Assembly: GCF_029318685.1 (NCBI RefSeq)
Contig: NZ_CP119677.1
Location: 3,711,001-3,775,000 of the forward strand
Source of the DNA: Ruminiclostridium papyrosolvens DSM 2782
Lineage (GTDB): Bacteria; Bacillota; Clostridia; Acetivibrionales; DSM-1351
Length of the DNA stretch: 64,000 nt
Direction of reading: 5' to 3'
Position numbers and translations under genes: made by a program. The notes beneath the pieces were generated by a model. That model did not search any database, was not told the DNA's origin, and saw only the letters and a list, made by a program, of their open reading frames with translations. Of the stretch, positions 1-14,800 are shown piece after piece (the first letter of the stretch is position 1; each line of letters starts with the position of its first letter).

Positions 1-1761
1 ATAATAATATGGTATTTGGGGTACACCCTCAACTTTTGGAAAGGATTGTAGATATCTGGCAGTTGCCAGCCATTCCTTTAGCTCGGTGGTATGTCCCCCT
101 GAATTAGTGTAAATAATACGAGAATTAAAATTCTTAATGGGCTTACCGTCCCTTGTTTTAGGTATTATGGGCAGAAGTCCGAAAGACCTGTCACCCACAG
201 TAGAGAGCATTTGTGCATTATATAAACCGCTTACTACCCTATATAGTTTTTTATCATTGATTTTTTCTTTTGTTCCGTCATGCTTTTGCAGGTAAGCTTC
301 TGTAACCCTATTGAGCATCATTCTGTTAGGATTAAAGGTGTAGCTGATGCCTGACATATACAGTTGAGCATAACTCAGCATAGGAGATATGGAGGCATCC
401 AGTTCACATAAATTTTTCAGTTCTTTTCCAGTAAGATACACTGATATAAGGGGATAGCCGGATATGTCATCAGGACCAATTCCAAGGCAGCTTGAAATAA
501 AAGCATCCTGTACGGTTATTTCACCCTCTACAAAAGAGCCTCTAATTGTTCCCACAGGTGCAATAGCAACAGCTACAGGTTCGTAGGCTCCCCCCTCCGC
601 CTGCTTGACGGAATAAATATATCCGTCGGAAATAAGGTTCCCCAAGGTATCCTCTTGCAGTTTTTTTCCTATTTGGTCAGTAGCAATGAAACTAAAAGGA
701 GACTTGCACAAAACTTCATCAAATTGCAAGTCAAAATAATTAAGATATTTTTGCTGAACCATATCCTTGAATTTGCTTATGGTTTGGGAAATTTCTATGT
801 TCTCATTAATTGATTGGTCAATATTCTTCAAATGGTAATCCTTTAGCGACCATCCTTTGCCGGAAGTCTGAACAAGTTCAATAACTCCCAGATTATTTCC
901 ATATTCGCCACAGGAACCGATTACAGTATTTCCATGTATAATAGGCTTTTGTAAAAGGGTATGTGTGTGTCCGCTTATTATAACATTAATTTCAGGAACC
1001 TTCTTTGCAAGTATTTCATCCTCTGATTTTGAAGACTTTTCCCATGTACCTGAGTGAGAAAGGCATACTATAAGGTCTACGCCCTCCTGTTTGAGCTTTT
1101 TTACCACTTTTTTTGAACTCTCAACAATATTATCAAAGGTAATCTCCGAGGCTGTTCTGCAACTGTCAGCGTCCCTTCCCATAAGGCCGAATATACCAAT
1201 CCTGATTCCTCCTTTGTTGAGAATAGTATATTCTTTCACTCCATATGCTTTCATTGCCTGCTGCAGCTCATAGGAGGATTTATTCATTTTTTTCACATCC
1301 GGAAATTCAATATTCGAGGTGACTATCTGAGGAAGTTTGTCACCACTGTTTTTTGCAGCATACAAATGACCGGACAGACCGGTATCTTTAAATTCAAATT
1401 CATGATTGCCAAATGTGGTTACATCATAACCCATTTGCCCCATAATTCTAAGCTCCGGTGCATCTGTTGAAAACAATGATTGAAATAAATCTCCCATTGA
1501 ATAGTCTCCGGCATCTACCAGAACTGTATTTTTGCTGTCCGCTTTTTCCTTGTCAATTGCCGTTTTCAGTCTTGAATATCCCCCTGTCCAGACAGTGTTG
1601 CCGTTATATTCTCCCTTGTTTGGAAGCAGGTGATCATGTATGTCATGAGTAAATAGAATTTTTATTTCCCTTGCCTCCTGATATGCAAATGTTTTTGAAA
1701 ATACTGAAATAATAATTATTATGATTGTTATTGCAAATAAAGCCAGAATTTTATACCTCAT
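1..1761 (-). CDS. 5'-nucleotidase / 2',3'-cyclic phosphodiesterase family protein, C-terminus beyond window
   Basis: Exported metallophosphoesterase that would dephosphorylate nucleotides or nucleotide sugars outside the cell. The frame is open from an ATG at 1761, preceded by GGGGAG, down to base 1, so 587 codons are visible and the stop lies outside the window. A hydrophobic N-terminus (about residues 4-21) is a signal peptide or anchor. The calcineurin-like metal motifs are visible: FTHDIHDH near residue 37 (the usual first Asp-x-His motif), VDAGDYSMGD, GNHEFEF and ISGHTHTLL. The C-terminal half follows the usual 5'-nucleotidase substrate domain. The family is normally 500-650 residues, so little may be missing. 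It is transcribed leftward, divergent from the dehydrogenase at 1889. The family is clear; the exact substrate is not. Confidence 0.88.
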   Translation of the reverse strand, partial: MRYKILALFAITIIIIIISVFSKTFAYQEAREIKILFTHDIHDHLLPNKGEYNGNTVWTGGYSRLKTAIDKEKADSKNTVLVDAGDYSMGDLFQSLFSTDAPELRIMGQMGYDVTTFGNHEFEFKDTGLSGHLYAAKNSGDKLPQIVTSNIEFPDVKKMNKSSYELQQAMKAYGVKEYTILNKGGIRIGIFGLMGRDADSCRTASEITFDNIVESSKKVVKKLKQEGVDLIVCLSHSGTWEKSSKSEDEILAKKVPEINVIISGHTHTLLQKPIIHGNTVIGSCGEYGNNLGVIELVQTSGKGWSLKDYHLKNIDQSINENIEISQTISKFKDMVQQKYLNYFDLQFDEVLCKSPFSFIATDQIGKKLQEDTLGNLISDGYIYSVKQAEGGAYEPVAVAIAPVGTIRGSFVEGEITVQDAFISSCLGIGPDDISGYPLISVYLTGKELKNLCELDASISPMLSYAQLYMSGISYTFNPNRMMLNRVTEAYLQKHDGTKEKINDKKLYRVVSGLYNAQMLSTVGDRSFGLLPIIPKTRDGKPIKNFNSRIIYTNSGGHTTELKEWLATARYLQSFPKVEGVPQIPYYY

Positions 1762-5563: not shown

Positions 5564-7045
5564 CTATGCCAAATCAGTTTCAAACCAAAACATAACACCT
5601 TCTGCCTTGTTTATAACACCATAAGCATTGTTATGGGCTTTCTGAATTGCTTTTACAATGGACAAGCCCAGACCTGTTCCTCCGTACGCTCTTGTTCTTG
5701 CCTTATCAACTTTAAAAAAGCTCATCCAAATGCTTTCTATAACTTCATCAGGAATGTTTTTTCCTGAATTGAATACCTCAACACGTGCCTTTGTATCTGT
5801 TATTTCAAGGTCGACATTTATTATCTTTTTATCATCCATGTGATTAAGTGCATTGCTGAGATAGTTCATGAAAACCTGTTCAATATAATAGTAATCCGCA
5901 TTCACAATTACATTATCCTTGCCCTTTGAATTGAAGGTGACTTTCGCATCTTTTTCGGCAAAAAGAATGGCTTTCTTTTTTAAAACATCAGTTATAAGCT
6001 CATTTATGGGAAAGTTATCCCGCTCAAGAGAGATTTGATTGAATTCAAGTTCTGATAGTTCAAGAAGCTTTCTTACCATGCTATCCATTTTGTTTGCTTC
6101 ATCAATTATAACGTCACAGTAAAAGTTCTTGTTTTCCTCGTCATCATTAACATTGAGCCTAAGTCCCTCTGCATAGCCTTGTACAATAGCAATAGGCGTT
6201 TTCAGCTCATGTGATACATTGCTGATAAATTCCTTTCTCATTTCATCAATCTGTCTTTCCTTCTGTATATCCTGCATTAACTTAAGGTTGGCTTGTTGCA
6301 AATCTCTTATTGAGGATTCCAACTGCTTCGACAGTGAATTTATGCTTTCTCCCAGTGTCCCTATTTCGTCGTTTCTGTTTACATAATATTTCTCACTAAA
6401 ATCAAGGACAGCCATTTTTTTTGCAATAACATTCAGCTTTACAATTGGTTTTGTAACTCTTGAAGTAAGAATGTAAATAATTAGTCCTCCAAGTACCAGG
6501 GTCAGAAGGCCTGTAAGAATAGAAAAGCTTATAGCTATTTGTGAGCTTTCCTGAATAGCGGCGAAGGGTGTTCCCATGTATATATATATATTATCATCTA
6601 TTTTGGCATAGAGTGATACAAAGTTTGATTCCATCCTTTTATCGTATCTGATTTCTATTTTGGGAGTATCCGTTTGAAGTCTGCTAATTTTGTCTTTTAT
6701 AAACTTTCTGTCAATAGACGGAGCAGTCCCCATAATATGTCTGTTTTCCCTTAACATTTGCAGGTTTCTCTGTCTGGATTGATAAATTACATTTAAATCC
6801 TTATCAAACAATAGTATGGCTGTTCCTCTCAGACTTTCAATTTTTTCTATATCCATCATTATATTGTCGGAATCGTTATTATAGGCATCCTTTATAATAT
6901 TATAGCTCTGCCTCATAGTATTTCTCTGGTTATGATAGTAATACTTTTGAAGAAGAGTACTGTTTAGAACCCACGTCAGAACCACCGAAAATACTATCAA
7001 GCCAAAAAATGCCCCAAAGAGCTTCGTTTTTAATGAGATTTTCAT
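5564..7045 (-). CDS. sensor histidine kinase (two membrane spans, HAMP)
   Basis: Membrane sensor kinase of 493 residues. Membrane spans are at about 11-29 and 168-193, enclosing an extracellular sensor region of about 140 residues. A HAMP linker follows (about 194-246), then HisKA with phospho-acceptor His279 in FISNVSHELKTPI, and an ATPase domain with NALNHM (N box) and GGTGLGLSIV (G box). The ATG overlaps the end of the upstream response regulator by four bases (ATGA), so the two are translated together. The kinase would phosphorylate that regulator. The stimulus is unknown; the nearest possible target is the secreted protein at 4970. Confidence 0.93.
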   Translation of the reverse strand: MKISLKTKLFGAFFGLIVFSVVLTWVLNSTLLQKYYYHNQRNTMRQSYNIIKDAYNNDSDNIMMDIEKIESLRGTAILLFDKDLNVIYQSRQRNLQMLRENRHIMGTAPSIDRKFIKDKISRLQTDTPKIEIRYDKRMESNFVSLYAKIDDNIYIYMGTPFAAIQESSQIAISFSILTGLLTLVLGGLIIYILTSRVTKPIVKLNVIAKKMAVLDFSEKYYVNRNDEIGTLGESINSLSKQLESSIRDLQQANLKLMQDIQKERQIDEMRKEFISNVSHELKTPIAIVQGYAEGLRLNVNDDEENKNFYCDVIIDEANKMDSMVRKLLELSELEFNQISLERDNFPINELITDVLKKKAILFAEKDAKVTFNSKGKDNVIVNADYYYIEQVFMNYLSNALNHMDDKKIINVDLEITDTKARVEVFNSGKNIPDEVIESIWMSFFKVDKARTRAYGGTGLGLSIVKAIQKAHNNAYGVINKAEGVMFWFETDLA

Positions 7046-7722
7046 TTAGTCACCTCAAACTTATATCCCAAGCCCCTTATGGTTTGTATGAAATCGCCCT
7101 TTTCTCCCAGTTTCAGTCTCAATTTTTTTATATGGGTATCAACAGTTCTGACATCGCCAAAATAACCATAATCCCAAACGGAATTAAGGATTTTCTCTCT
7201 GGACAGAGCTATTCCGTCATTATCACAAAGATAGAGCAACAGTTCAAATTCCTTTGGGGTAAGCTCTATTTCTTGACCGCTGACATGCACTGTATGAGCC
7301 GGAAGATCAATCTCCAAACCGTCAAAGGATTTTTTACCGTTTATATTAATATTTAATCTTTTAAGCAGAGCTTGTACTCTTGCCAATAGTATCATCAGGC
7401 TGAAAGGTTTGGTTATGTATTCGTCTGCTCCAATACCAAAACTCAGCAGCTCATCTGCTTCTGTACATTTTGCTGTCAGCATTATTACGGGAACCTTTGA
7501 ATATTGGCGAATACTCCGCAATGCCTCCCATCCATCCATTATGGGCATCATTACATCAAGAATTACCAGACTGATTGTTTCTTTTTGCTCAATAATTATC
7601 TGTAATGCCTTCATTCCGTTATCTGCTTCAATTACGGCATATCCCTGTTTTTTGAGAAAATCGGCAACCAGTCTTCTCATTCTTTCCTCATCATCTGCAA
7701 TAAGAATTTTAATTAAACCCAC
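7042..7722 (-). CDS. OmpR/PhoB-family response regulator
   Basis: DNA-binding response regulator of 226 residues. The receiver domain has the acidic pocket ADDEE near residues 10-13, phospho-acceptor Asp56 in LVILDVMMPIMDG, and conserved ITKPF. The C-terminal winged helix contains LTPKEFELLLYL and the recognition helix region VRTVDTHIKKLR, ending IRGLGYKFE. It is translationally coupled to the downstream kinase. Its own promoter region carries two direct hexamers of PhoP type (7775-7791), which suggests autoregulation. Confidence 0.94.
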   Translation of the reverse strand: MGLIKILIADDEERMRRLVADFLKKQGYAVIEADNGMKALQIIIEQKETISLVILDVMMPIMDGWEALRSIRQYSKVPVIMLTAKCTEADELLSFGIGADEYITKPFSLMILLARVQALLKRLNININGKKSFDGLEIDLPAHTVHVSGQEIELTPKEFELLLYLCDNDGIALSREKILNSVWDYGYFGDVRTVDTHIKKLRLKLGEKGDFIQTIRGLGYKFEVTK

Positions 7723-8471: not shown

Positions 8472-8587
8472 CTCTACCTCTTTAATTTAGTTTATATGTT
8501 TACCTGCTTTATTCAATATACTTAAATTTAACCCAAAAGTCTGTAGATATATACTAAATTTTTTTATTTTTCTTTATTTTTGGGTAA

Positions 8588-8628
8588 AATTAAACAGGAC
8601 AGCTGATTAAAAGCAGTCCTGTTTAATT
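8588..8628 (-). terminator. rho-independent terminator of the ferritin-like gene
   Basis: AATTAAACAGGAC (8588-8600) pairs perfectly over 13 bases with GTCCTGTTTAATT (8616-8628). On the - strand it lies 13 bases after the stop at 8641 and is followed by TTTTACCC. Confidence 0.8.
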
Positions 8629-8640
8629 ATCTAACTGATA

Positions 8641-9429
8641 TTAATATTTGCAATCATTATTGTGAATTAAAAGATTATATAAAGAAGCATGCCTTAATTC
8701 ATCCGTAATTATTTCTACCATCATGTTTATATGTTTTCTGTTTTTCATGGCAGCTAATATCCTGCGGTATTTTTTTACCGCATTAGTTTCACCCATAAGA
8801 GCTCCTCTAAGCCCGTCACAATATGTTTTAGGTTTTTCAAAGGTAACATTTTCATCAGGTTTTACGGTCTTTCCCGTATGTTCGAAATAAATCTGTCGGA
8901 ACATCTTTGCATGTTTTATTTCATTGTCCCTTATCTCTGTGATAATTTCTTTGTCCAGCATCGCCGGGGCATTGTCTAAAAGATATTGATAGAATAATTT
9001 GTCATGTATCTCACCTTTTATCGCTTGTTGAATTAACTCCAACGCCTCCGACATATCTACATCCATTTTATCCTGTTGCATCATATCAGGGCTCATACCG
9101 CAATTCATCATATCCTGCTGCATCTTGTCGGGACACATCCCTGGCTGCATCATACCCTGCTGCATCATGTCAGGACACATTCCGGGCTGCATCATACCCT
9201 GCTGCATCATATCAGAACCCATTCCGGACTGCATCATGCCCTGCTGCATCATGCCAGGAGCCTTTTCATCTTCATCGTGATTTATATGTGGTGTATAGCC
9301 CGGTTGTATATCAGGACTATTGGTCTGCATGGTCCAAGGGTTTGTCATCCCTGAACCTTGATTTTTATTTGAAGGGCCCGGAGCCATCATATTACTGCTT
9401 ACATATGGCCAATTTACGTAATTATGCAC
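8641..9429 (-). CDS. methionine-rich ferritin-like (rubrerythrin/DUF2202-type) protein
   Basis: Protein of 262 residues, started by GTG 9429 after GAGGAGG. Residues 1-56 are Asn/Pro/Gly-rich and end in HDEDE. Residues 57-126 form imperfect 15-residue repeats of the form MMQQGMMQPGMCPD, with 23 methionines and three cysteines in 70 residues. Residues 128-262 are a four-helix ferritin-like domain with the metal pattern E..(IKGEIHD), ExxH (NEIKHAKMF), E (GETNAV) and ExxH (DELRHASLY). Such domains bind di-iron and are common in clostridial spore-coat or peroxide-defence proteins. The Met repeats resemble copper-binding Met motifs, so metal binding is plausible. No signal peptide is seen. It is monocistronic with its own terminator. 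The domain call is firm; the role is not. Confidence 0.75.
   Translation of the reverse strand: MHNYVNWPYVSSNMMAPGPSNKNQGSGMTNPWTMQTNSPDIQPGYTPHINHDEDEKAPGMMQQGMMQSGMGSDMMQQGMMQPGMCPDMMQQGMMQPGMCPDKMQQDMMNCGMSPDMMQQDKMDVDMSEALELIQQAIKGEIHDKLFYQYLLDNAPAMLDKEIITEIRDNEIKHAKMFRQIYFEHTGKTVKPDENVTFEKPKTYCDGLRGALMGETNAVKKYRRILAAMKNRKHINMMVEIITDELRHASLYNLLIHNNDCKY
9052..9261 (-). repeat. in-gene tandem repeat encoding Met/Gln/Gly-rich units
   Basis: About five imperfect 45-base units (the + strand reads CTGCTGCATCAT with variations) encode residues 57-126 of the ferritin-like protein. The unit length is a multiple of three, so copy number can change without breaking the frame. Antisense open frames here are only shadows of the repeat. 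Confidence 0.85.
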
Positions 9430-9596
9430 AATTATACCTCCTCTTTTATTAACATAAATTCCTTATTACATGTTATGTAAAATATACAGGAATGTTTCCC
9501 CCTACTAAGAAGAGTTTTCAAGTCCGATATAATATTTTTTATGTTAATATATTTCGGTAACAGTATATACACACGTTAACTTTAATTAGTGATTAA

Positions 9597-10334
9597 TTAG
9601 ACAATAAAATCAGAACAGTGATTATCCTTTTGGCTTTCTATTACATAATGCATGTAAGCACATTTTATCTCTTTCCTGCCTGACTGTCGTATGGGAATAG
9701 TGAAGCTGTTTTTCAGAACAAACTCATTTTCTTTGGTTGCAATTATATGCTGCATATTTACGATAAATCCTCTATGGGACCTTAAGAATCTTTTGTCCTT
9801 AATAATATCACAAATTTTTGCCATAGGCATATGAATTTTATATTCTTCGATTTCGGTAGTTATGACAATACCATTCCTTACAGCTTCAATGTACATGATA
9901 TCCCTAAGTCTGATTTTCACAGTCTCTTTCCCCAAAGGCAATTCTATGTACTTTGCATCAAAGGCTAAAATCTTTTTGCAACGGTTTAAGGCTTGTTCCA
10001 CACGTTTATATGTTATAGGCTTAATAAGATAGTGTGTTGCAGCAACCTCAAAGCCTTCACCTTTGTGGTCCAAGCTGGAGGTTGTGAAAATAATTTTACA
10101 GTCCTCATCAGTTTCACGTATTTTCTCAGCAACTTCAACTCCGTCTATACCTTTCATGTATATATCCAGAAATACAATTTTATATTTTTCCTCTAAAAAA
10201 GACGTCAACATTTCTTCACCACTGTCAAACTCCACAACTTCAATATTGACAAAATTATTTTTTGCATACTGCAGTATGTACTCGCACAGCAATGTACGAT
10301 CAAATCTTAAATCGTCGCAAATGGCTATTTTCAT
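9597..10334 (-). CDS. LytTR-family response regulator (orphan)
   Basis: Response regulator of 245 residues in the AgrA/LytR class. The receiver domain starts MKIAICDD, has phospho-acceptor Asp57 in IVFLDIYMKG and a conserved Lys in LIKPI. The LytTR DNA-binding domain covers about residues 130-235 (RLRDIMYIEAVRNG, then FLRSHRGFIVNM). I place the start at ATG 10334, after AGGAAGG; an in-frame ATG seven codons upstream lacks a site. No histidine kinase is adjacent. The divergent region towards the beta-helix gene contains two 11-base direct repeats typical of LytTR operators, so regulation of that gene and of itself is likely. Confidence 0.92.
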   Translation of the reverse strand: MKIAICDDLRFDRTLLCEYILQYAKNNFVNIEVVEFDSGEEMLTSFLEEKYKIVFLDIYMKGIDGVEVAEKIRETDEDCKIIFTTSSLDHKGEGFEVAATHYLIKPITYKRVEQALNRCKKILAFDAKYIELPLGKETVKIRLRDIMYIEAVRNGIVITTEIEEYKIHMPMAKICDIIKDKRFLRSHRGFIVNMQHIIATKENEFVLKNSFTIPIRQSGRKEIKCAYMHYVIESQKDNHCSDFIV

Positions 10335-10413
10335 CGTAACCTTCCTAAGATGCAATAATAATTGGAATATCTTTCCTTTTAGAATTATAACATGAAAGAT
10401 TTGATTTTTTCAA

Positions 10414-10444
10414 TCGTATTGCACTTTTTGCCGTCGAATTGCAC
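10414..10444 (+). promoter_or_regulatory. LytTR-type operator: two direct repeats
   Basis: TCGTATTGCAC (10414-10424) and TCGAATTGCAC (10434-10444) match at 10 of 11 bases and are 20 bases apart start to start, putting them on the same face of the helix. They end eight bases before the -35 element of the predicted rightward promoter. LytTR regulators such as AgrA and ComE bind paired direct repeats with about this spacing. The link to the divergent LytTR gene is inference. Confidence 0.6.
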
Positions 10445-10451
10445 ATACCGC

Positions 10452-10480
10452 TTCACTTTTGTCCAAAATACTGATATCAT
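10452..10480 (+). promoter_or_regulatory. predicted activator-dependent promoter
   Basis: TTCACT (10452-10457), a 17-base spacer and TATCAT (10475-10480). The weak -35 and the paired repeats just upstream fit a promoter that needs an activator. The transcript would start near 10487 and carry a leader of about 130 bases before the gene at 10616. Confidence 0.45.
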
Positions 10481-10497
10481 TAGCTTTAATAGGAATA

Positions 10498-10569
10498 ATG
10501 GGTATGGAGGGGATATTCTCGAAAAAACTAACCAAAATTAATCATTATGCATATAGTTACCTTGTTTAA
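10498..10569 (+). CDS. possible leader peptide of 23 residues
   Basis: An ATG at 10498 in the predicted leader opens a 23-codon frame ending TAA at 10567-10569 (begins MGMEGIFSKKLTK, ends YSYLV). The upstream AGGA is close and weak, and an alternative ATG lies two codons in after GGGT. The product is basic with a Tyr-rich end. Its place between a LytTR-type promoter and the target gene is suggestive of a signalling or attenuator peptide, but chance is a fair alternative. Confidence 0.2.
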   Translation: MGMEGIFSKKLTKINHYAYSYLV

Positions 10570-10615
10570 AAGCTTTCTTTCATTAAATTTAAATGTTTTT
10601 ACTTAAAGGTTAATA

Positions 10616-11440
10616 ATGGTGTTTACATCAAAATTTCAAACAAAGAGGCGAGGCAAATTGGATAGAATTAAGAAACTACGGTTAAGACCTATTGTAGATT
10701 TAAAGGTTGACACCATTTTGCCGCATTACGAAATCACTAAATGTGAAGCATGTAATCAGGCAAAAGTAGGTAATAAAGAATTTCCTACACTGCAAAAAGC
10801 ACTTAATTCCATAGAAAGCCCAGAAGAAACAATTATTACTCTGCTCACAGATGTGAACCTTGGTGAATCTACTCTGACACTGGATACTAATACTAATGTA
10901 GTACTTGATTTGGCAGGTCATAAAGTCACCAGTAGAAATTTTGACGGTACAATATATCTGGAGGGTGCATTAACCGTACAAGACTCCAGCGAAAAGGAAA
11001 CCGGCGTAATTGAAAATTTATATCCAAAAGGTATGGGAATCTATTTTAATAAATCCGGTGTTCTAAAACAAGAAGGTGGAACAATAAAAGGCTATAGTGC
11101 ATTATACAATTGGAGTAATACACCCGCGCCTTTTGTAATAATGAACGGCGGAACATTAAAAGGCAGTTGGTACGGAATATCATATCTGGATGCAGCAAAT
11201 ATAATAATAAACAATGGAACAATACAAGGCGGAGTAATGGCTTTTAACAATTGGGGCAAATCTAAGCATTCATTTTACATTGGAGAATCCAGTTACATAA
11301 AAAAGGGTGCATTGCTGCACAATGGTATAGCTAAGAAATATGATGCTACTGAAAATATTGTTATAGTTAAAAATCAATATGAAATTGTTAACCCTTTTTT
11401 TAAACACAGTACTATTACCTCTTCTTTTTCATTGGCTTAA
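10616..11440 (+). CDS. right-handed beta-helix (pectin-lyase-fold) protein of unknown function
   Basis: Protein of 274 residues. After a basic N-terminus (KRRGKLDRIKKLRLR) and a CEACNQ pair, it contains FPTLQKALNSI then TIITLLTDVNLGESTLTL and VVLDLAGHKVTS. This pattern is common at the start of parallel beta-helix repeats in clostridial surface proteins. Repeating short strands with Gly/Asn turns continue to about residue 235 (EQ/NGGTLKG, NNGTIQGG). No signal peptide, anchor or catalytic lyase residues are recognisable, so export and activity are uncertain. It is a single gene between the LytTR operator and a strong terminator, and is the likely target of that regulator. An alternative TTG start at about 10657 follows GAGGCGAGG. 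Confidence 0.7.
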   Translation: MVFTSKFQTKRRGKLDRIKKLRLRPIVDLKVDTILPHYEITKCEACNQAKVGNKEFPTLQKALNSIESPEETIITLLTDVNLGESTLTLDTNTNVVLDLAGHKVTSRNFDGTIYLEGALTVQDSSEKETGVIENLYPKGMGIYFNKSGVLKQEGGTIKGYSALYNWSNTPAPFVIMNGGTLKGSWYGISYLDAANIIINNGTIQGGVMAFNNWGKSKHSFYIGESSYIKKGALLHNGIAKKYDATENIVIVKNQYEIVNPFFKHSTITSSFSLA

Positions 11441-11483
11441 CTTATTTTTTGATTAGTTGCAAAATACCTGATAAATATATCGT

Positions 11484-11525
11484 CCGGTTAGGAAGCTTAA
11501 ACTTCTAAACCGGATCTTTTTATAT
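11484..11525 (+). terminator. rho-independent terminator after the beta-helix gene
   Basis: CCGGTTAGGAAG (11484-11495) pairs with CTTCTAAACCGG (11502-11513) with two weak positions, followed by ATCTTTTTAT. It lies 44 bases past the stop. Confidence 0.8.
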
Positions 11526-11645
11526 TGTTCAAATTACTACATTTCGAATAAAAAAATTAATAAAGCAAATAATTTTTATATCTTATATTTTTTTATAGGG
11601 TTAATTTTTCTCTTTTCATAACAATAATTATACTTGGAGGTAGCT

Positions 11646-11837
11646 ATGAATAAAAAAGATAAGCAACTGGACGGACGGGACAACAGACGAAGAACAGCGT
11701 ACAGACCCACTGACAATGAGGGAACGGCTGCCTGGACAAATGAAGCCGCAAAGCAAAAGGACACTAATGTTGTCATTCCAACAGTGGAAGGTGTTTCAGA
11801 AGCAAAAAGCTGGGTAGATAATGGAAGTAAACTATAA
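11646..11837 (+). CDS. small DUF3787-like protein
   Basis: Hydrophilic protein of 63 residues from ATG 11646; GGAGG lies 7 bases upstream, and a TTG at 11634 falls before that site. The C-terminus, with TNVVIPTVEGVSEAKSWVD, matches my recollection of the clostridial DUF3787 family, whose function is unknown. The centre has an Ala/Trp motif (EGTAAWTNEAAKQKD), also typical. It ends 18 bases before nifJ and probably shares its transcript. Family assignment is from memory of the motif. Confidence 0.7.
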   Translation: MNKKDKQLDGRDNRRRTAYRPTDNEGTAAWTNEAAKQKDTNVVIPTVEGVSEAKSWVDNGSKL

Positions 11838-11855
11838 TACGGGGGTGTTTTTTAA

Positions 11856-14800
11856 ATGTCGAAAATCAAAATGACGGTTGACGGTAATACTGCAGCTGCA
11901 TATGTGTCCTATGCTTTTACCGATGTCGCTGCAATTTATCCAATAACACCATCATCAAACATGGCAGAATCAGTTGACGAATGGTCTGCCAAAGGCAAAA
12001 AAAATATATTCGGGCAAAAAGTCCGAGTAGTTGAAATGCAGTCAGAAGCAGGTGCAGCAGGTGCCCTTCATGGTTCTCTTCAGGCAGGTGCCCTTACTAC
12101 TACGTTTACTGCTTCCCAAGGCTTGTTATTGATGATTCCGAATATGTACAAGGTTGCAGGGGAACTGTTGCCTGCTGTTTTCCATGTGAGTGCAAGAGCT
12201 ATTGCAACTCATGCTCTCTCCATCTTCGGCGATCATCAGGATGTAATGGCAGCAAGGCAAACCGGTGTAGTCCTGCTTGCTTCCGGTTCAGTTCAGGAAA
12301 TAATGGATTTGGCACCTGTAGCTCATTTGGCTGCAATTAAAGGACGACTTCCTTTCCTTCATTTCTTTGACGGCTTTAGAACATCTCATGAAATACAGAA
12401 AGTCGAAGCACTTGAATATGAAGATTTGGCAAGTCTGGTTGATTACGAGGCAGTTAAGGAATTCAGAGACAGAGCCTTGTCTCCAAATCATCCTGTTACA
12501 AGAGGTACAGCTCAAAACCCTGATGTTTATTTTCAGGGTCGTGAAGCCTCTAATCCTTTTTATAATGATATTGTCGGTATTGTTGAGGATTACATGAATA
12601 AGGTTGGGGCTCTTACAGGCCGTAAATATAGCCTTTTTGATTATTACGGAGCACCTGACGCCGAAAATATAATTGTTGCAATGGGTTCAATTACAGATGT
12701 TGTTGAAGAAACTATAGACTATATGAACAGTCAGGGTAAAAAGTACGGACTTGTAAAGGTTCACCTTTACAGACCATTCTCTGTAAAACACCTGCTTAAT
12801 GCAATTCCTAAAACAGTTAAAAAAATAGCTGTTCTGGACAGGACAAAAGAACCGGGTTCCATAGGAGAGCCTTTATACCTTGATGTTAAAACTGCGTTTT
12901 ACGATGTTCCTAATGCACCTGTTATAGTCGGGGGAAGATTTGGTCTTGCTTCAAAGGATACTACTCCTTCCGATATTAAGGCAGTATATGACAATCTGGA
13001 ACAGCAGAATCCTAAAAACCAGTTCACCATCGGTATAGATGATGACGTTACTCATACATCCTTGGCAGCAGAAGCAAAAATTAATGCAGAACCAAAGTCA
13101 ACTATCAGATGTAAGTTCTGGGGACTTGGTTCCGATGGAACTGTAGGAGCAAACAAACAGGCAATAAAGATTATAGGTGATCATACCGAGAAATATGCTC
13201 AGGGCTACTTTGCATATGACTCTAAGAAATCAGGCGGAGTTACCATGTCCCATCTCAGATTTGGAGATGAGCCTATAAAATCTGCGTACCTAATAAATGA
13301 GGCGGATTACATTGCTTGTCATAATCAATCCTACGTAAACCAGTACGACTTACTCAAAGGTATTAAAAAAGGCGGTATCTTTGTCTTAAACTGCCTGTGG
13401 GACGAAAAGGAATTGGAAGACCACCTTCCTGCTGAAATAAAACAGCAGATATCCAAAAATAATATACAGTTCTACACAGTTAATGCAACAAAGATTGCCG
13501 AGTCAATAGGTCTAGGAAACAGGATAAACATGATAATGCAGGCTGCTTTCTTTAAGCTTGCCGATATTATTCCTCTTGAAGAAGCTGTTAAGTACCTCAA
13601 GGATGCCGTTGTAAAAAGCTATGGCAAAAAGGGCGAAAATATTGTTAAGGTTAATCATGAAGCAATCGACAAGGGTATTAACGCCATAGTCAAGATAAAT
13701 GTTCCAGACAGTTGGAAGGATGCACAGGATACGTCCAATACTGACATTAATGAGCCGGAATTTATAAGCGAAGTCATGAGGCCTATGAATGCAATGAAGG
13801 GTGAAGAACTTCCTGTAAGTGCATTTAAAGGAATAGAAGACGGAACTTTGCCAAATGGAACCTCAGCTTATGAAAAACGAGGCATTGCAGTTAATGTCCC
13901 CGAATGGCAGCCAGAAAGCTGCATACAGTGTAATATCTGCTCTCTGGTATGTCCTCATGCGGTTATCAGGCCAACTCTGGCAACCGAAGATGAGTTAAAG
14001 GCCGCACCTGAAGCCTTTGTTACAAAAAAAGCTGTGGGCAAGGGAATGGAAGAATACCAGTTCAGAATACAGATAAGTCCTATGGACTGTACAGGCTGTG
14101 GCAACTGTGCTGACGTTTGTCCTGCTAAGCCAAAAGCTCTGGTTATGAAAAAACTGAGCACCCAGACAGAACGAGAAATACCTAACTATGACTATGCTAC
14201 CAACAAAATAGGATATAAAGGCGGTAACTTTGGAAACAAGACCATTAAGGACAGTCAGTTCAGAAAGCCTTTAATGGAATTCTCCGGAGCTTGTGCCGGC
14301 TGTGGTGAAACCCCATATATTAAGCTTATAACACAGCTTTACGGTGACAGAATGATGATTGCAAATGCAACCGGTTGTTCATCAATATGGGCTGCCTCAT
14401 ATCCTACAAGCTCATATACGGTAAACCATGAAGGCAAAGGCCCTGCTTGGGCAAATTCCCTGTTTGAGGATAATGCCGAATTCGGTTATGGTATGTACCT
14501 TGGGGTAAAGCAAATCAGAGAACGTCTCAGAGATGTTGCAAATGAGCTATTGGAGCTGGATATTGATGAAAAGCTTAAACCTTTATTAGCAAAATGGCTG
14601 GAAAGTGTTGAAGACGGTGCAGCCTCCAAAGGAGCCAGCGAAGACTTAATTAGTGCTCTGCAGAGCTACTCAAATAAGGATCAGAAGCAAATGCAGCTGG
14701 TTAATGAACTTCTGGAAAAGAAGGACTATCTTATTAAACGTTCCATATGGGTAGTAGGCGGTGACGGATGGGCTTACGATATAGGCTATGGCGGACTTGA

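Follow-up and report, generated by a model that had tools for sequence, protein, structure and literature searches.

A 64,000-nucleotide stretch of DNA (hereafter the window; positions 3711001-3775000 of the single-contig, 5,027,861-base genome of Ruminiclostridium papyrosolvens DSM 2782) was analyzed in this study and compared with related genomes, which suggests that it carries a dedicated on-switch in which an orphan LytTR response regulator probably activates a single divergent beta-helix gene. The regulator gene (9597-10334, minus strand) encodes a protein of 245 aa with a receiver and a LytTR DNA-binding domain, and the beta-helix gene (10616-11440, plus strand) encodes a stand-alone protein of 274 aa, predicted to fold as a right-handed beta-helix. 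Between them lies a 31-bp candidate operator (10414-10444, plus strand), conserved in an alignment of eight genomes. As described in an earlier note on this DNA, it consists of two near-identical 11-base direct repeats, TCGTATTGCAC at 10414-10424 and TCGAATTGCAC at 10434-10444, which are 20 bases apart from start to start with nine bases between them.

Joint inheritance of the regulator and the beta-helix gene

Relatives of the beta-helix protein at E<=1e-5 were identified in nine of 148 genomes, namely eight of the 11 genomes of the genus and one genome with a weak match in a 4014-aa open frame. Close orthologues of the regulator (64-100% identity, at least 327 bits) are found in the same eight genomes, and the relative with the next highest score among 60 genomes reaches 124 bits and 34% identity. 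The conserved co-occurrence that the earlier note proposed to look for was thus found: the two genes are adjacent and divergent in all eight genomes, with 211-288 bases between them, and the other three genomes (G003, G004, and G007) lack the regulator, the beta-helix gene, and the operator. As judged from these genomes, either the whole unit is present or none of it.

The surroundings of the unit were also compared. In seven of the eight genomes the pair precedes a small ORF (67 aa, 11634-11837 in the window), followed by a gene of the pyruvate:ferredoxin oxidoreductase family; the small ORF is kept in genomes with and without the pair. G004 retains the flanks (a 798-aa GH2 glycosidase, the small ORF, and the oxidoreductase) and lacks the pair, and its GH2 glycosidase resembles the one adjoining the pair in G009 and G010. 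G003 and G007 likewise keep the small ORF and the oxidoreductase gene, which are preceded there by different long ORFs. The G010 pair is flanked by GH2 and GH42 genes on a 6.7-kb contig (L059:5-6362), the regulator sharing a strand with the GH2 gene downstream of it; the oxidoreductase gene of G010 occurs on a separate contig and is preceded by different genes.

Conservation of the operator

With at most one mismatch, the 11-mer matches the 64-kb window twice, both times at the operator repeats, compared with a chance expectation of 2.73. A lone 11-mer would be expected about this often by chance, and the evidence is therefore the pair and its conservation. The exact repeat pair is unique in the 5.03-Mb genome. 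The operator pattern (at most three mismatches) occurs once in each of the eight genomes that carry the two genes and is absent from the other three, and the reversed pattern, used as a control, was found in none of the 11. The genome search for the pair in front of other genes, also suggested earlier, accordingly returned one copy in each of these eight genomes, in every case in the region separating the two genes. All 31 bases are the same in five of the copies; the variant common to G001 and G009 still fits the pattern, and the G010 copy carries two mismatches.

Invariant columns of the eight-genome intergenic alignment make up 23 of 31 positions in the operator versus 59 of 307 in the rest (Fisher p 8e-10, to be read as a guide only because columns and genomes are non-independent, the eight genomes being few and related and G001 and G009 nearly identical). 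Among the five close genomes, all 31 operator columns are invariant versus 176 of 266 elsewhere. Within one column, the operator is the best-conserved 31-column window of the eight-genome alignment.

Scored against working LytTR and VirR consensus strings, the repeats rank no higher than out-of-register positions within a common stretch of 55 bases; for the VirR string, the 8 of 12 reached by the first repeat is equaled at three other positions. The assignment as a LytTR operator thus rests on geometry and conservation. This poor fit would be expected if the repeats bound another transcription factor and the LytTR gene were adjacent by descent only. However, the operator occurs exactly where the regulator does (8 of 11 genomes) and nowhere else in those genomes, and the placement of direct repeats at a two-turn period directly before a weak −35 is that of LytTR systems, which makes binding by another factor very unlikely.

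Promoters and transcript ends

Seven bases after the operator, a putative beta-helix gene promoter (10452-10480, plus strand) consists of TTCACT (10452-10457) and, after 17 bases, TATCAT (10475-10480) within the extended −10 TGATATCAT, reproducing the weak −35, spacing, and −10 reported before. The −35 hexamers across loci (TTCACT, TTATTA, and TTAATT) are all poor and were read at a fixed offset, the 17-bp spacer being imposed and not found. The −10 hexamers are TATCAT, TATTAT, TATGAT, TAAAAT, and TAATAT, each preceded by TG. When offsets of 20-44 were scanned, only offset 30 gave TG and a fair −10 in all eight genomes, and among 20,000 random triplets of sequences with the same first-order composition, none shared any such offset, by criteria chosen post hoc when the pattern was already known.

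The regulator has its own promoter, TTGAAA-N18-TATAAT (10384-10413, minus strand). The near-consensus form TTGA..-N18-TATAAT was found in all eight orthologous loci with spacers of 16-19 allowed, and by its sequence this promoter looks independent of an activator. It ranked first in a generic promoter scan, which found 12 promoters versus 12.4 expected and thus no excess. Its −35 abuts the operator in the five close genomes, as might be expected if the operator mainly controlled the regulator itself by autorepression or autoactivation and the beta-helix promoter were coincidental. That distance, however, grows to 20 bp in G009 and G001 and 41 bp in G010, whereas the distance from the operator end to the beta-helix −10 is 30 bp in all eight, and a near-consensus promoter should need no activator. 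The geometry therefore ties the operator to the beta-helix promoter, and we regard an operator that acts mainly on the regulator as highly improbable.

In the window, the −10 lies about 135 bases upstream of the annotated beta-helix start, a distance that speaks against the proposed activation. A short ATG frame near position 10498, noticed by eye, was considered as a hidden peptide gene between the operator and the beta-helix gene and was rejected because it is not conserved in the aligned relatives; no Rfam family was found within 8500-12000. Downstream of the beta-helix gene, a terminator-like hairpin with a T-run (11471-11521, plus strand) is present in seven of the eight orthologous loci, all but G010, although a simple scan missed the copy in the window; the beta-helix gene is therefore probably transcribed alone. 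On the other side, no such hairpin follows the regulator gene in the window or in six of the seven other loci (G009 has one), and the regulator transcript may therefore read through into the next same-strand gene, which begins 167 bases on in the window (167-309 across loci) and is rubrerythrin-like or GH2 depending on the clade. The claim that no other gene belongs to the unit thus probably holds on the beta-helix side and is less sure on the regulator side. In the window, this next gene (8641-9429) adjoins the regulator gene and encodes a rubrerythrin-like protein with a repetitive, Met/Gln-rich N-terminal half; its orthologous ORFs in four other close genomes range from 210 to 298 aa, which suggests a variable number of repeats.

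The regulator and its possible kinase

The regulator matches the Pfam families Response_reg and LytTR with 60.7 and 54.4 bits (cutoffs 30.2 and 22.6) and misses the NCBIfam AgrA cutoff (38 of 400 bits). The start common to the orthologues is ATG 10334 and not TTG 10355; the upstream TTG is unneeded because all eight orthologues align from the ATG. With dN of 0.050 and dS of 0.620 (10 pairs), the gene is, by this comparison, under purifying selection. In all eight orthologues, the receiver retains the aspartate pair, Asp57, Thr84/85, and Lys105, which we take to be its phosphorylation residues, making a kinase encoded elsewhere likely.

No kinase gene was recognized beside the regulator, in agreement with the earlier reading: its flanks in the window are the beta-helix gene and the rubrerythrin-like gene, and the neighbor is also rubrerythrin-like in the five close genomes, whereas G009 and G010 have a GH2 glycosidase there. 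The nearest recognized kinase gene in the window (5564-7045) is separated from the regulator by two genes and adjoins a regulator of its own. All five receiver-LytTR genes of the genome were searched for a HATPase_c_5 match within 3 kb; four have one and the orphan regulator has none. As far as its sequence and surroundings indicate, this LytTR response regulator is most likely an orphan dedicated to a single target.

Candidate kinases were collected in the 11 genomes of the genus as HATPase_c_5 and His_kinase matches. Among the matches listed, PF06580 has 15 in the genome of the window and 66, 77, and 58 in G001, G009, and G010, respectively. An unlinked AgrC-type kinase (G000:C1:3167287-3168573, L151:1785-3077), comprising HATPase_c_5 and SPOB_a, is present in the five close genomes (85-100%), and no LytTR match was found in the 5.5 kb around it. 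It was rejected as a proven partner, since it also occurs in the pair-less G007 and G003 (62 and 61%), while the pair-bearing G010 lacks a match at E<=1e-30. The aligned part of a distant copy in G009 (C30) contains nine stop codons. The adjacent kinase and regulator genes at 5564-7722 (HisKA and HATPase_c; Response_reg and Trans_reg_C) were also rejected: they are missing from the sequence inspected around the unit in G002, G006, G009, G001, and G010 and are thus not fixed neighbors.

The beta-helix protein

The beta-helix protein of the window has no Pfam family at E<=1, and hydropathy, used in place of a dedicated predictor, indicated no signal peptide or transmembrane stretch in any of the eight orthologues (largest 19-residue mean 1.06), in agreement with the earlier description of a protein lacking a signal peptide. 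When all eight proteins were searched against Pfam, three families gave weak matches in one or two members each (best E 0.0037, a bHLH model), which were judged to be chance. A single NCBIfam match was below its cutoff (16.2 of 100 bits), a PDB sequence profile search gave only two matches, both at E 0.46, Foldseek returned nothing for the model at E<=0.001, and no relative was found in the phage collection or, by profile, among the ORFs that surround other LytTR regulators at 22 loci (L020-L041).

The AlphaFold model has a mean pLDDT of 65.6, with block means of 79-95 over residues 51-190 and low values in both tails. Compared with solved beta-helices by VIA-align 2, it gave a best Z of 15.1 with an rmsd of 3.4 over 189 residues (3uw0), consistent with a predicted right-handed parallel beta-helix. 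The structural matches are scattered over many beta-helix families and thus carry no information on function. Pectin methylesterase-type beta-helices have the same right-handed parallel fold; the protein of the window falls in no Pfam family at E<=1. The first 45 residues of the beta-helix proteins form a basic tail, with 9-12 Lys/Arg versus 2-5 Asp/Glu.

Stand-alone beta-helix proteins of the genus are 198-274 aa long. When 391 genomes of the class were searched with a profile, 21 had matches, of which five have the beta-helix gene and 16 are others; of the 18 matches in those 16 genomes, 17 fall within open frames 643-4014 aa long and the remaining one within a 265-aa frame interrupted by a stop. 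The beta-helix is thus recognizable as a module of long ORFs elsewhere in the class, whereas a clear stand-alone form was seen only in this genus among the 391 genomes. A scan of named genomes identified one locus, in R. papyrosolvens C7.

The dN/dS of the beta-helix gene is 0.22 overall and 0.18 in the core (10 pairs, five genomes), indicating that the ORF encodes a real protein; in codons 15-45, dN is close to dS, as in a fast-evolving linker. The frame opens close upstream of the start in the five close genomes, so no longer, secreted form is hidden there. Within the annotated ORF, AAAGAGGCGAGG aligns with sequence that precedes the ATG of three distant orthologues, and TTG 10658 may therefore be the real start.

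The dS of the gene is low (0.235 versus 0.465-0.896 for five neighboring genes in the same five genomes), with dN ordinary, and is lowest in codons 1-45 and 136-180; two further genes, compared in three genomes only, have dS of 0.563 and 0.382 versus 0.143 for the beta-helix gene. An overlapping RNA or ORF was considered as a cause: in comparisons with the distant clade, codon identity at shared residues is 0.59, 0.40, and 0.53 in three beta-helix pairs, 0.43-0.50 for the regulator, and 0.47 for a single oxidoreductase pair, which does not support deep constraint, though one beta-helix pair is above this background. Recent exchange between species or codon choice are possible explanations of the low dS.

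Proposed mechanism and comparison with known LytTR systems

In the mechanism that we propose, the regulator would be made steadily from its own near-consensus promoter, and its receiver would be activated, most likely through phosphorylation by a kinase encoded elsewhere. A dimer of the activated regulator would then bind both direct repeats and recruit RNA polymerase to the adjacent promoter with its extended −10 and poor −35, giving a single-gene transcript for the beta-helix protein. We infer the binding, activation, and phosphorylation steps from sequence. The product may remain intracellular or be exported by a route without a signal peptide and could serve as a binding or scaffold protein; that it is the effector of the switch is the weakest step, a tentative assignment that we hold to be doubtful.

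LytTR regulatory systems (LRS) consist of a LytTR regulator without a receiver and a co-transcribed membrane protein that inhibits the regulator. In this locus, the regulator has a receiver, and its partner gene is divergent and encodes a protein without a transmembrane stretch. A related arrangement may nevertheless be considered, in which the beta-helix protein restrains the kinase-less regulator or presents a signal to it. The strict joint presence and absence of the two genes (eight versus three genomes), the single operator per genome, the failure to recognize a kinase beside the regulator, and a beta-helix protein that is soluble and has a basic tail would all fit such feedback, and pairs of a LytTR regulator and a membrane protein are described in the available part of PMC6193735. 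The conserved phosphorylation residues in all eight receivers, however, are as expected if a kinase still acts, and the LRS partner is a membrane protein from the same operon whereas here it is soluble and divergent; feedback of this kind therefore appears unlikely. Its fullest form, a self-contained module in which the two proteins regulate each other and the beta-helix protein is both the sole target and the sensor or brake, is a quite unlikely reading; if true, a module otherwise found in long ORFs would have been recruited as a signaling part.

The switch favored here, in which the regulator activates the beta-helix gene, has close counterparts. VirR of Clostridium perfringens is also a LytTR response regulator, and its boxes are immediately upstream of the −35 (PMC2838878, in the text available); it has the kinase VirS and several targets, whereas here no adjacent kinase was recognized, each genome has one operator, and the repeat sequence is different. 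According to the accessible portion of PMC6193735, direct repeats lie 8 nt upstream of the −35 in the hdrRM promoter of Streptococcus mutans, which has a putative extended −10, and these repeats are 11-13 bp apart and also diverge from the consensus. The promoter layout was thus rightly likened to that of LytTR-activated genes, as far as these partial sources go. HdrR and BrsR resemble the present case in repeat placement and extended −10, but belong to autoregulated operons of a regulator and a membrane protein, in contrast to a receiver-domain regulator with a divergent gene for a soluble protein.

CdtR of Clostridioides difficile is likewise an orphan LytTR response regulator, encoded inside the locus that it up-regulates (PMC4944984, in the part available), and its target differs. 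The LytTR response regulator AgrA of Staphylococcus aureus is part of the agr quorum circuit, and two-component systems of the AgrA and VirR type have an adjacent cognate kinase gene, which was not recognized here. The LytTR regulator ComE, at a high level, can work without phosphorylation (available text of PMC12323615).

The regulatory layout is of the ordinary LytTR kind, and therefore only the target and the pairing look new: this would be a switch of the kind known from VirR, AgrA, and HdrR with a new target and two-gene inheritance. The earlier suggestion of a compact unit is supported by co-inheritance and by the fixed distance from operator to −10 in all eight genomes, but that of a signaling system is not, as no sensor was found. 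A beta-helix target in a strict two-gene unit was not described in the papers searched, which left most subscription papers uncovered, and LytTR is not mentioned in the available main text of PMC10701907. Among the tags Ccel_1162 to Ccel_1168, which we take to be this locus in R. cellulolyticum, only Ccel_1164 was found in the papers searched, in the pyruvate-catabolism table of the accessible part of PMC3561251.

Biological implications

These results give an orphan LytTR regulator of cellulose-degrading Ruminiclostridium bacteria, which are cultured for laboratory study, a precise and testable single target and operator, and define a two-gene unit that is present or missing as one. If the proposed switch is confirmed, the operator would be a ready reporter for finding the missing kinase or signal and would provide a first handle on the function of the stand-alone beta-helix family.
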